A stretch of DNA of 16,494 bases from contig NZ_JBAGBW010000032.1 in the NCBI RefSeq assembly GCF_039822205.1, positions 1 through 16,494 on the forward strand, read 5' to 3'. The position numbers and the translations under genes were made by a program. The DNA is from Thermodesulfobium sp. 4217-1 (GTDB lineage Bacteria; Thermodesulfobiota; Thermodesulfobiia; Thermodesulfobiales; Thermodesulfobiaceae). Under the pieces are notes generated by a model. The model was not told the DNA's origin, searched no databases, and saw only the letters and a list, made by a program, of their open reading frames with translations. Positions 210 through 12,799 of this stretch are shown piece after piece; position 1 is the first letter of the stretch, and each line of letters starts with the position of its first letter.

Positions 210-212
210 ATG

Positions 213-992
213 ATGGCAAAACACTTTCTTAATCCTGTAACAGACGTACAAGTCAGCAAATTAATTCTAAAGCACTACTACGAGAGCATTACTGATGCGC
301 TTAATTCTGACGTTATAATCGTAGGGGCAGGCCCATCTGGGTTGACTGCTGCAAGGGAGCTTGGAAATTCAGGTTATAAGGTAGTAATTATGGAAAGAAA
401 GCTCTCCCCCGGCGGCGGCACCTGGGGCGGCTCGATGTCTTTTAATAAAGTCATAATACAAAAAGATTTAAAGGACTTATTAAACGATCTGCAACTGCCC
501 TTTGTGGAAGATGAGGATGCCCTTGTGGTAGACTCTTGTCTATTTGCAAGTCAGCTGATCTCTCAAGCTCTGAAAGCACCAAACGTAAAGCTTTTCAATC
601 TAATGACAGTTGTAGATTTAGAGTATATAAATAACGCAATTACAGGTGTAGTGGTAAACAATACAGGGATAGAAATAGCAGGACTTCATGTCGACCCAAT
701 GGTGTTTCAGACAAAGGCAGTTCTGGACTCCACAGGCCACGATGCCATAGCTGCAAACATCTATTCAAAGAGAGTGCAGATTCCTCTTAAAAAAGAGCAT
801 TTTATGAATGCAATTCAGGGGGAAGAAGATACCGTAAACAATACAAAAATGTTAGCAAACGGTTTATTTGTCTCTGGAATGGCAGCCAACAACGTTGACG
901 GCGGCAGCAGAATGGGGCCAATATTTGGCGGGATGATAAAATCTGGTCTTAAGGCTTCCAAATTAATAATGGAGTATATAAAAACTGTTTAG
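213..992 (+). CDS. thi4: Thi4-family thiazole synthase, sulfide-dependent (His) type
   Basis: The protein makes the adenylated thiazole moiety of thiamin from NAD, glycine and a sulfur source, in the cytoplasm. Numbering from the ATG at 210, the Rossmann dinucleotide motif GAGPSG is at residues 39-44. The MERK acidic end of the following strand and a GGGTWGG motif (68-74) come next. A DSTGHDA motif is at 173-179, and the C-terminal GMAANNVDGGSRMGP region (223-237) is typical of Thi4. Suicide Thi4 enzymes (yeast, plants) carry a sacrificial cysteine. Here the aligned segment reads GLHVDP with His160, as in the catalytic archaeal and anaerobe enzymes that use free sulfide and iron. Two ATGs lie in tandem at 210 and 213. 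I prefer 213 because AAGGAGG (201-207) is then 5 bases away rather than 2. The length of about 260 residues is normal. No other thiamin gene is in the window. The end of the gene overlaps the proposed start of the NFACT gene, suggesting coupling. Confidence 0.93.
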   Translation: MAKHFLNPVTDVQVSKLILKHYYESITDALNSDVIIVGAGPSGLTAARELGNSGYKVVIMERKLSPGGGTWGGSMSFNKVIIQKDLKDLLNDLQLPFVEDEDALVVDSCLFASQLISQALKAPNVKLFNLMTVVDLEYINNAITGVVVNNTGIEIAGLHVDPMVFQTKAVLDSTGHDAIAANIYSKRVQIPLKKEHFMNAIQGEEDTVNNTKMLANGLFVSGMAANNVDGGSRMGPIFGGMIKSGLKASKLIMEYIKTV

Positions 993-2520
993 CACCTTAA
1001 CATTTTATCTAAACTTTATAGAGGCGAAAAATAGATTAATCGGAAAACAAGTTAGCAAACTGCTTTTCTACAAAGATTGTTTTACGTTAAATCTCTGGGA
1101 TAAGGAAGAGGGTTCTACCTTCTTCCTTGTATCACTAATAAACAACATTCCATTCATTGGCCTTTCAAAAGAAAAGAATGTAAAATTCGAATCGCACAAA
1201 CACCCCTTTTATGACTTTTTGAACAAACACCTGCCAGGATCAGAAATAACTGACATCACAATCAATAGATTTGACAAGGTATTGAAAATTTCTTTCTCAA
1301 ACGATTTCCCAATTGGCAAATTTCCCAAGGTAGACATCGTTCTGGAGCTTATTACGAATAAAACCAATGCAATTGCATTGGTAGACAATGTGATCAAAAC
1401 GTCTTACAAGGAGATAATTCCAGACGATCCTCTAAAAAGAAAGATACTCTCTGGAATAGAGTATCAATATCCAGACAAGTCAAAAAGGCTTGAGCCAAGA
1501 GAAATCACATCAGAGCTCCTGTCAGAATTTGGCGTTGAAAAGACCCTATCGGAAAAAACCTTTGGCTTTCCAAAGAACGTTATAGATGAAGTAAAAGATT
1601 GGACTCCTCAGAGAGTCCTTCATTGGATAGATAGCGACTTCGAGAATCTTTACCCGAAAGTGGTCGACAATGAATTAATTTTGTCTTTAGATAACGAAGA
1701 GAATTCATTCCTTGAAACTATATATGCCCTTGGCACAAACAAGATTATCAAACTAAACGAAGATAAAAGAAGAAGAGAAATTGAGTCAGAAAGAAAGAAA
1801 AAGGTCACATATTTACAAAAAAAACTCGATAATGTAAAAAAAGACCTTGAAAAAAATTTACAGTGGGAAGAGCTCCAATCACGGGCGACAAACATTTTAA
1901 GCAATTTAAATAGAGTAGAAATTATTAACAACCAATATGTACTCGACGGATTGGCTATCGGAGATTCGAACACTACCCCAGGCAAAATAGCAAGCGATCT
2001 GTTTGAAAGGGCAAAGAAGATGAAGAGCGCCCTTTCAAAGATTGAAAAGATGATACGATTTTTAGAAGATGAGATTACAAAAGCTAAATCAGAAAATTTA
2101 ACGCCTGCCAAACCAGACAAGAAGAGAGAAGAGAGAAACAAGAAAGAAAGAGAGAAGACAAAGGATTATATAAAAATAGACTTTGATGACTACACCATTG
2201 CATTGGTCGGCAAAAATGCCAATTCCAATATAAATTTAATAAAGATTTCAAATCCAAATGACTGGTGGTTTCATGTTAGAAATTATTCTGGCAGTTATTT
2301 GATTTTAAAAACTACAAAAAAAGAGCTAAACCAGGCTGATATTAAAAAAGCTTCACAGATATGCGCTCATTTTTCAAAAGGAAAGAAAGAAAAAGAAGTA
2401 GAGGTAATCTATACCCAGGTAAAATACCTCACAAAGGCCAAAGGTAAGAGCAATGGGATGATTTTTTACAGAAATGAAAAAACAATTTTCGTCTCTCCAG
2501 AAAAAGAAAAAGACCTATAA
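985..2520 (+). CDS. rqcH: NFACT/RqcH-family ribosome quality-control protein, non-canonical (CTG) start
   Basis: RqcH binds stalled, peptidyl-tRNA-obstructed 50S subunits and recruits tRNA-Ala to add C-terminal alanine tails. The C-terminal NFACT-R domain (DUF814) is clear: a GKNANSN segment, then NDWWFHVRNYSGSYLIL, the ASQICAHFSKGK helix and VEVIYTQVKYL. A coiled coil rich in Lys/Glu fills the middle. The first ATG/GTG/TTG in frame is a TTG at 1219, but NFACT-N homology clearly continues upstream: LIGKQVSKLL, then HPFYDFLNKHLPGSEI, matching the family's L.G.RI.KI and PP.F...LRKHL.G. The frame is open from 982 with no usual start codon. CTG at 985, 10 bases after GGAG (971-974), gives 511 residues and puts the family's DR motif at residues 97-98, the numbering I recall for Bacillus RqcH. 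Here it reads FDKV, so Arg is replaced by Lys. The start overlaps the thi4 stop (CTGTTTAG). An upstream ATA or a sequence error are alternatives. The family call is secure; the start is not. Confidence 0.85.
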   Translation: MFSTLTFYLNFIEAKNRLIGKQVSKLLFYKDCFTLNLWDKEEGSTFFLVSLINNIPFIGLSKEKNVKFESHKHPFYDFLNKHLPGSEITDITINRFDKVLKISFSNDFPIGKFPKVDIVLELITNKTNAIALVDNVIKTSYKEIIPDDPLKRKILSGIEYQYPDKSKRLEPREITSELLSEFGVEKTLSEKTFGFPKNVIDEVKDWTPQRVLHWIDSDFENLYPKVVDNELILSLDNEENSFLETIYALGTNKIIKLNEDKRRREIESERKKKVTYLQKKLDNVKKDLEKNLQWEELQSRATNILSNLNRVEIINNQYVLDGLAIGDSNTTPGKIASDLFERAKKMKSALSKIEKMIRFLEDEITKAKSENLTPAKPDKKREERNKKEREKTKDYIKIDFDDYTIALVGKNANSNINLIKISNPNDWWFHVRNYSGSYLILKTTKKELNQADIKKASQICAHFSKGKKEKEVEVIYTQVKYLTKAKGKSNGMIFYRNEKTIFVSPEKEKDL

Positions 2521-4496: not shown

Positions 4497-4991
4497 TTAA
4501 TTAAAAAATATAAATTTAAAAATTAAAAAGATATATATCGCCAGGACGGTAAAAGATGCCCTGTATTCGTTGTTGGACATATATCTATCAAATGATATTG
4601 GAGCCGACTTAAAGCTTAAGAAATTTGGGAAAAATGCAGGAACCCTACTCTTGTATTCGAGAAATTTTTCTTTGTGTTCGTTGTAGAGCTCCACCTCTTC
4701 TTCTCTCATCTTGTGAAAGTGGACGAACAAGAATCCCACAGCGAAGATTGCCAACAAAATAAGGCTTCCAGTGGACATCATCACCCCAAAGCCAGCCAAA
4801 AAGCTGCCCAGATAGAGAGGATTTCTGACGATAGAATATGGTCCGTCAGTGGAGAGAACCTTTACTTTATTTATGGTAGCTGCCGCCCACGCTCTCAGCA
4901 AAAGTCCCAAGATTGAAAAAACTACGCCAGAAAATAAAGACAGCTTAGTCGGATGTGACAGAAATATTATCAAAATAAACAGTAAATACAA
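4497..4991 (-). CDS. Isoprenylcysteine carboxyl methyltransferase-like membrane protein
   Basis: This 164-residue integral membrane protein carries the ICMT/PEMT-type signature GPYSIVRNPLYLGSFL at residues 50-65. It is followed by a hydrophobic segment and by an acidic EEE...YNEHKEKFLEYKSRVPAFFP stretch, as in bacterial members of this family. They are presumed S-adenosylmethionine-dependent methyltransferases, substrate usually unknown. Hydrophobic helices lie at about 2-12, 18-40, 62-92 and 145-163. The C-terminal helix after a short hydrophilic loop (about 122-144) is an extra beyond the usual core. The ORF has no ATG. TTG at 4991 is the likeliest start, though its Shine-Dalgarno is weak, and the frame is open upstream for 12 further codons that are rich in Lys/Arg. 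It precedes rmlB by 11 bases, so a role in lipid or glycan envelope metabolism is an inference from context only. Confidence 0.75.
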   Translation of the reverse strand: MYLLFILIIFLSHPTKLSLFSGVVFSILGLLLRAWAAATINKVKVLSTDGPYSIVRNPLYLGSFLAGFGVMMSTGSLILLAIFAVGFLFVHFHKMREEEVELYNEHKEKFLEYKSRVPAFFPNFLSFKSAPISFDRYMSNNEYRASFTVLAIYIFLIFKFIFFN

Positions 4992-5030
4992 AAGCTTGGT
5001 TCTTTTTTTGACGAGAAATTTTATAATTTA

Positions 5031-11706: not shown

Positions 11707-12799
11707 TTAACCACCCTGATTTTTTTCTTTTGATTGTTTTAGTAAATATGCCTTCTGAAATTCGTCAATATTGCCATCCAGGGCTCCATACACATCTCCA
11801 ATTTCCACATTGGTTCTGTGATCTTTCACCATGGTATAAGGATGCAAGACATAAGTTCTTATTTGCTTGCCCCATGAAGCATCAGTTTCACCCTTAAACT
11901 CGTTTAGCTTACTCTTTTGCTTTTCTTCATTGAGGCTGTTTATCCTGGAGATAAGGACCTTCATAGCCGCATCCTTATTCTGAAATTGACTTCTCTCATT
12001 TCTACATGTCACCACAATGCCAGTTGGCAAGTGAATAATTCTAACTGCCGAATCAGTTTTGTTTACGTGCTGTCCCCCTGCGCCAGAGGCTCTAAAAGTC
12101 TCAATCCTGATATCCTCGTTTTTTATATTCACTTCCTTAATGTCTTTGATTAATGGAGCCACTTCCACCAGTACAAATGATGTATGCCTTCTGTTATTAA
12201 AATCAAATGGAGAGAGTCTTATCAGCCTGTGAACTCCTTGCTCAGACTTCAAAAACCCATAAGAATATCTGCCCTTGAAAAAGATGGTAGCAGATCTGAT
12301 GCCAGCCTCATCTCCAGGACTCTGATCGACGAATTCTACAGAATACTTATTTTTTTCTCCCCATCTGATATACATCCTAAGAAGCATTTCAGCGAAATCT
12401 TGCGCGTCCACGCCTCCTGCCCCAGCGCTTATTGTAAGCATGGCGTCATAGCTATCGTATTTATCAGATAAAAGAGCCTTAAATTCCATTTCTTCAAGAA
12501 TCTGGATTAAGTTTTTATAACTTTTATCAACTTCAATATCTGCATCTTCACCCTGAAACTCCAACCAAAACAAAAAGTCTTCAAAATTCGATGTCAAGTT
12601 TTTCCACTCGTCAACACTTTTCTGAAGACCGTCAGCTATCTGGGTAAGGTTGGAAGACCTTTGAACATCTTGCCAGATTTCAGGTTTGGAAAATTCCATT
12701 TTTATGCTATCTAATTTTTTTGTTTTGTTGTCCAGGTCAAAGACAGTCACGTAGCTTTAAGATTCTCTCATTTAGCGAATTAACATCATATTCAATCAT
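11707..12799 (-). CDS. prfB: Peptide chain release factor 2 (RF2), programmed +1 frameshift
   Basis: RF2 reads UGA and UAA stop codons in the ribosomal A site and triggers peptide release. The open frame from GTG 12750 lacks the normal N-terminus. The true start is ATG 12799, which reads 20 codons (ending LRDCL) to an in-frame TGA at 12739-12737. A +1 slip on CTT TGA C then continues as DLDNKTKKLD, giving 363 residues, the family's usual length. In full-length numbering the stop-codon recognition motif SPF is at 196-198 and the catalytic GGQ at 241-243 (ASGAGGQHVNKTDSAVRI). The start has a GGAAGGA ribosome binding site inside the secA 3' end and overlaps the secA stop as ATGA. The frameshift makes RF2 level autoregulatory: low RF2 leaves the UGA unread and favours the slip. 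The usual stimulatory AGGGGG-like sequence just before CTT is not evident here. The coordinates span both frames, joined at the slip site. Confidence 0.95.
12736..12742 (-). other. RF2 programmed +1 frameshift site (CTTTGAC)
   Basis: On the minus strand the sequence CGTGACTGTCTTTGAC contains CTT (12742-12740), the in-frame TGA stop (12739-12737) and the C that gives poor termination context. The peptidyl-tRNA-Leu slips from CTT to TTT and translation resumes at GAC (12738-12736). Upstream frame and downstream frame both match RF2 family sequence exactly up to this point. Confidence 0.93.

Follow-up and report, generated by a model that had tools for sequence, protein, structure and literature searches.

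The locus described here raises the question of where translation begins when the reading frame of a conserved protein holds no usual start codon at its N terminus. The frame, of the NFACT/RqcH family, lies on the forward strand of a 16,494-nucleotide stretch of DNA from Thermodesulfobium sp. 4217-1 (the whole stretch is termed the window, and is contig 32 of a 69-contig draft genome), where it is bounded by a TAA at 979-981 and by a stop codon ending at 2520. The genome carries one copy of the gene. A preliminary description had reported that ATG, GTG and TTG were missing from the conserved N terminus and had proposed initiation at a CTG overlapping the stop of the thi4 gene upstream. The locus was compared among the window's genome (G000) and those of three relatives (G001, G002 and G003), which are all of one genus and the sole four genomes of the phylum available. 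The relevant features of the window are the following.

210..992, forward strand: thi4-family gene, directly upstream (Pfam PF01946 Thi4, E 6.6e-65); the same neighbour is found in G001, G002 and G003
971..974, forward strand: putative Shine-Dalgarno sequence GGAG, ten bases upstream of the CTG; present in four of four genomes
979..981, forward strand: in-frame stop, upstream bound of the NFACT frame; not itself conserved, G001 having TTA
985..987, forward strand: CTG, proposed NFACT start codon; kept in four of four genomes, with an N-terminal length as family models expect
985..992, forward strand: overlap of the proposed NFACT start and the thi4 stop, CTGTTTAG (CTGTTTAA in G001); one or the other form in four of four genomes
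985..2520, forward strand: NFACT/RqcH-family gene, 511 codons plus stop, by the proposed start; Pfam NFACT_N, NFACT-R_1 and NFACT-R_2; codons 4-78 under purifying selection
1219..1221, forward strand: TTG, first usual start in frame, rejected as start; CTA in G001, and 78 codons inside selected coding sequence
1273..1278, forward strand: D97-K98 (CTG as residue 1), where Bacillus subtilis RqcH has its 97DR98 motif; DK also in G001 and G003

The reading frame and its candidate start

Codon-by-codon reading from 982 onwards confirmed that no ATG, GTG or TTG occurs before the TTG at 1219, and the first 78 codons of the frame were found to encode conserved protein sequence. The in-frame stop is followed by AAA at 982 and by the CTG at 985-987, which differs from ATG by one base. 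The claimed overlap was present, positions 985-992 reading CTGTTTAG with the thi4 stop TAG at 990-992, and the GGAG said to lie 10 bases 5′ of the CTG was located at 971-974. This putative Shine-Dalgarno sequence consists of four bases only, and its spacing of ten is long, if workable. The last codons of thi4 (ATG GAG TAT ATA AAA ACT GTT TAG) contain both the GGAG and the CTG, and the GGAG and its spacing also encode Thi4. Because the CTG likewise encodes part of Thi4 (ACT GTT, Thr-Val), its conservation may be due in part to thi4.

Conservation and selection

The gene order thi4 to NFACT is common to all four genomes, G001 and G003 being single-contig genomes, and the NFACT proteins of G002, G003 and G001 are 97%, 72% and 71% identical to that of the window. 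Alignment with these close relatives placed CTG at the same position and in the same frame in every genome, without indel, and yielded no other usual start: an ATG was neither restored at the site nor present elsewhere in a relative, and TTG 1219 was not conserved, with the G001 frame lacking a usual start as far as codon 230. Retention of the CTG exceeds the background, because G001 retains CTG at only seven of the 91 internal CTG positions of the window and CTG accounts for 5.5% of leucine codons.

Codons 4-78 differ between G000 and G002 by 14 synonymous and no nonsynonymous changes, and dN/dS over the same codons was 0.08 (G000-G003), 0.06 (G000-G001) and 0.09 (G003-G001). For codons 4-26 alone, the respective values were 0.25, 0.10 and 0.21. 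Synonymous sites in codons 27-78 and 79-155 were saturated in the G000-G003 and G000-G001 comparisons, leaving no computable ratio; the G003-G001 pair gave 0.05 for codons 27-78 and 0.08 for codons 79-155. Such purifying selection on codons 4-78 is indicative of translation beginning at or before about codon 4. From the upstream stop to codon 4 the frame reads AAA, CTG, TTT and AGC, the CTG being the sole near-cognate start, and on these sequence comparisons the NFACT gene most likely begins at CTG 985.

Family assignment and N-terminal length

The protein matched Pfam NFACT_N (PF05833) with an E value of 1.6e-18 and 67.2 bits (cut-off 31), together with the NFACT-R models PF05670 (41.7 bits, cut-off 29.8) and PF18297 (37.6 bits, cut-off 26.9). 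Counting the CTG as residue 1, residue 18 matched position 16 of NFACT_N and residue 13 matched position 11 of the RqcH_arch model. The family models thus align almost from their first position, and the expectation that CTG 985 gives a protein of the usual length was upheld. Among NFACT loci of other phyla extending into the N-terminal domain, most have a usual start ~ 20 residues ahead of the conserved glycine region; CTG 985 lies 19 codons ahead of that glycine. Two loci outside the genus were noted in passing. One, in another phylum (L021), has no usual start before residue 42 and only ATC and ATT codons ahead of the conserved PFDG motif. The other (L007, genome G049) is an NFACT homolog match carrying one in-frame TAG, possibly a pseudogene or a case of recoding.

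An equivalent of the DR motif had also been placed at residues 97-98. The position proved to be that of B. subtilis RqcH, but the residues are DK: of the 97DR98 motif for tRNA-Ala the aspartate is kept and the arginine is replaced by lysine in the window, G001 and G003. Since D97A/R98A ablates RqcH function (PMC8373112), alanine tailing by the window's protein is not assured. Membership of the NFACT/NEMF domain family stands, while its identity as an alanine-tailing RqcH appears less probable than before.

Other genes of the genus without a usual start

Ortholog pairs of G001 and ~ 900 kb of G003 were compared, and several conserved proteins lacked a usual start at the N terminus. For five of these genes the sequence was examined across the four species (loci L173-L192). 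RNase J has ATT after AGGAGG, the same codon in all four, and a GmhB-like phosphatase has ATT after a GAGGAG-type Shine-Dalgarno sequence, also in all four, with a TTG two codons before it in G000. At the conserved N termini of LpxC, NrnA and RsmI, the four species share ATC, CTG and CTG, respectively. In each of the five the near-cognate codon is constant while the preceding codons vary. Further cases were seen in two species: an FtsQ-like gene (CTG after AAGGAGGT; named by gene position only, with no family match), an LpxL-like acyltransferase (CTG), CCA (ATA), GNAT (ATT) and a Gfo/Idh oxidoreductase (ATT). Counted from these codons, family models aligned close to their beginnings (residue to model position: NrnA 7 to 8, LpxC 10 to 13, RsmI 5 to 2, GmhB 8 to 5 and GNAT 2 to 4, alongside NFACT 13 to 11). 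MurA, MurF, FtsI, XerC, HNH and O-antigen ligase were left out of the set as ambiguous.

Internal ATC codons of the window are kept as ATC in G001 in 12 of 88 cases; with the 7/91 for CTG, this puts retention of CTG and ATC at the proposed starts above background. For ATT the internal retention is already 57%, and its persistence at proposed starts is therefore hardly informative.

Other start sites were recorded during this survey. TTG is a frequent start, being shared by G001 and G003 at 141 of 604 Shine-Dalgarno-supported conserved starts. In the window itself, on the reverse strand at 4497-5027, a PEMT-family gene (phospholipid/isoprenylcysteine methyltransferase-like) has conserved residues IIKFLVKKRTKL preceding TTG 4991, its first usual start. 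The first codon of this conserved stretch is ATT 5027 (or ATA 5024), which immediately follows a stop and has an AAAGGG upstream of it; this is likely a second non-standard start in the window. The prfB gene, also on the reverse strand, has a classical +1 frameshift site (CTT TGA C, 12736-12742). The first exon opens with ATG 12799, which forms an ATGA overlap with the stop of secA, and the GTG 12750 start given in the list of open reading frames is not the real one.

The initiator tRNA of the genus looks normal, and an altered initiator tRNA was rejected as an explanation, the anticodon-stem G-C pairs and C1xA72 being present. In IF3 of the genus, Asp occupies position 116, where E. coli, Geobacillus and Thermus have Arg or Lys, and the C-domain has Lys in place of E. 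coli Arg168. It is speculation, drawn from few sequences, that the changes at 116 and 168 weaken start-codon discrimination. The infC gene itself (locus L047, G001:C1 about 297952-298546) appears to start at an ATA behind GGAGGTGAATGTT, in keeping with infC of other bacteria.

Controls and frequency

Near-cognate codons behind Shine-Dalgarno-like sites in open pre-start stretches, when pooled, showed no excess (26 seen, 24.7 expected), and the case for near-cognate starts therefore rests on individual genes. A stricter census of the genus gave 11 of 710 pairs without a usual start, about 6 of which were judged clean after reading. The same census gave 3/150 for Sinorhizobium megaplasmids, two of which look real, and 0/85 for T4/RB69. 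The view that the genus is exceptional in its start codons was thus unsupported, the Sinorhizobium control having a similar rate (2-3/150). The two control genes with a likely non-standard start lie on S. meliloti pSymB (L199, ~ 49.4 kb in, and L195, ~ 9.4 kb in). A transporter-like gene has an apparent ACG start behind GGGAGGGTG and hutC an apparent ACG or CTG start, both conserved in S. meliloti and S. medicae.

Two further approaches were set aside. Choosing the codon of greatest Shine-Dalgarno strength over all codons in 855 ortholog pairs was too noisy. Unsupervised EM of start codons recovered ATG, TTG and GTG, then ATT, CTG and ATA, plus spurious TTA and TTT; it failed on a GC-rich control and was not used as evidence.

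The preliminary description had called a CTG-initiated gene unusual. This holds against annotated frequencies, where CUG makes up 0.024% of bacterial initiation codons (PMC11497404); within the genus, however, about a dozen genes, NFACT among them, are of this sort. Among about 69,000 starts, switches to CUG or AUU were few (PMC5622118). The database frequencies of near-cognate starts derive from annotation, which may understate them, and the set of genes collected here suggests that the annotated CUG figure is an underestimate.

Alternative explanations for the NFACT start

An improbable explanation is a programmed +1 frameshift at the end of thi4 (ACT GTT TAG C), with a GTT to TTT slip generating a low level of a Thi4-NFACT fusion. 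The geometry fits a slip onto TTT before a stop, as in prfB CTT TGA C, all four genomes keep the GTT with a T after it, and the CTTTGAC of prfB in the window indicates that frameshifting is present in the genome. Such sites include a slow stop, however, and here the stop and the next base vary (TAG C, TAG T, TAA T). Moreover, the NFACT N terminus is of standard length without a fusion, and five other genes likewise lack a usual start, of which RNase J and the GmhB-like gene, with their own strong Shine-Dalgarno sequences after in-frame stops, are not explained by a slip.

Initiation at another unusual codon nearby, such as TTA 997, TTT 988 or ATA 1018, has only a slim chance of being correct. 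The first few codons are not resolved by selection alone, and TTA 997 is shared by the four genomes; but TTA is a very poor start codon, ATA 1018 is TTA in G001 and G003, and neither TTA nor ATA 1018 has a Shine-Dalgarno sequence as well placed as that of CTG 985.

A start at TTG 1219 would give a protein 78 residues shorter and leave the upstream frame untranslated. This TTG is the first codon open to gene finders, whose choice is limited to ATG, GTG and TTG, yet most of the initial portion of the NFACT-N domain would then be lost, the codon is replaced in G001, and codons 4-78 evolve as protein (dN/dS below 0.1). This start is very improbable, and is ruled out by the purifying selection on those codons. 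A sequencing or assembly error hiding an ATG might be suspected in a 69-contig draft, but is the least probable explanation of all and is excluded by G001, G002 and G003, which share the identical CTG arrangement with no indel and of which two are single contigs.

Interpretation

By computation, then, the NFACT frame is without a usual start, its N-terminal codons are under selection, and the CTG, the GGAG and the overlap are kept in four species. We consider it highly probable that these features are best explained by an NFACT start at CTG 985, with GGAG as ribosome-binding site, restart coupled to thi4 and a low protein level. In E. coli the efficiency of CUG is 0.86% of that of AUG (PMC11497404), which counts against CTG 985 as a start. 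A start overlapping a stop is a known basis of coupling (PMC6728339), and coupling of NFACT translation to thi4 is plausible since the overlap is conserved. We infer CTG as the actual initiation codon, together with methionine insertion, coupling and low expression. The ordinary initiator tRNA would decode the CTG, supplying formyl-methionine, with GGAG 971-974 serving as the putative ribosome-binding site. Ribosomes finishing thi4 would probably restart at CTG 985, as this lies within the last two thi4 codons and stop. Such restarting may compensate for the weak codon, and the amount of NFACT protein would be low and tied to thi4 translation.

A wider reading, which we put forward tentatively and regard as rather doubtful, is that the genus tolerates CTG, ATT, ATC and ATA starts in ~ 1-2% of genes, some of them essential (RNase J, LpxC, FtsQ, CCA, RsmI and NFACT), possibly through an IF3 C-domain that discriminates less. 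In its broader version, the annotation of bacteria in general may be missing conserved near-cognate starts. Gene finders allowing only ATG, GTG and TTG truncate or misplace such genes, and NFACT would lose its first 78 residues. Near-cognate starts are already known as a kind, and the main interest of the NFACT CTG is that it is one member of a set; conserved near-cognate starts in the essential genes of one genus offer a natural setting for studying start-codon discrimination.

Comparison with known systems

In termination-reinitiation at ATGA/TGATG overlaps, the downstream start overlaps the upstream stop, the genes are co-directional and the arrangement is conserved, as at the thi4-NFACT junction (PMC6728339). 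The NFACT junction differs in that the overlapping start is CTG, the overlap spans 8 bases and the coupling is putative. RqcH of B. subtilis (NFACT/NEMF) shares with the window's protein the NFACT_N and NFACT-R domains and an acidic residue at 97, and differs from it in having DR rather than DK at 97-98 and a usual start rather than CTG. The infC gene, with its AUU or AUA start, resembles NFACT as a translation-related gene with a conserved near-cognate start, and infC of the genus appears to use ATA. The weak start codon of infC serves autoregulation by IF3. That autoregulatory loop belongs to infC, whereas the NFACT codon is a CTG at a stop overlap.
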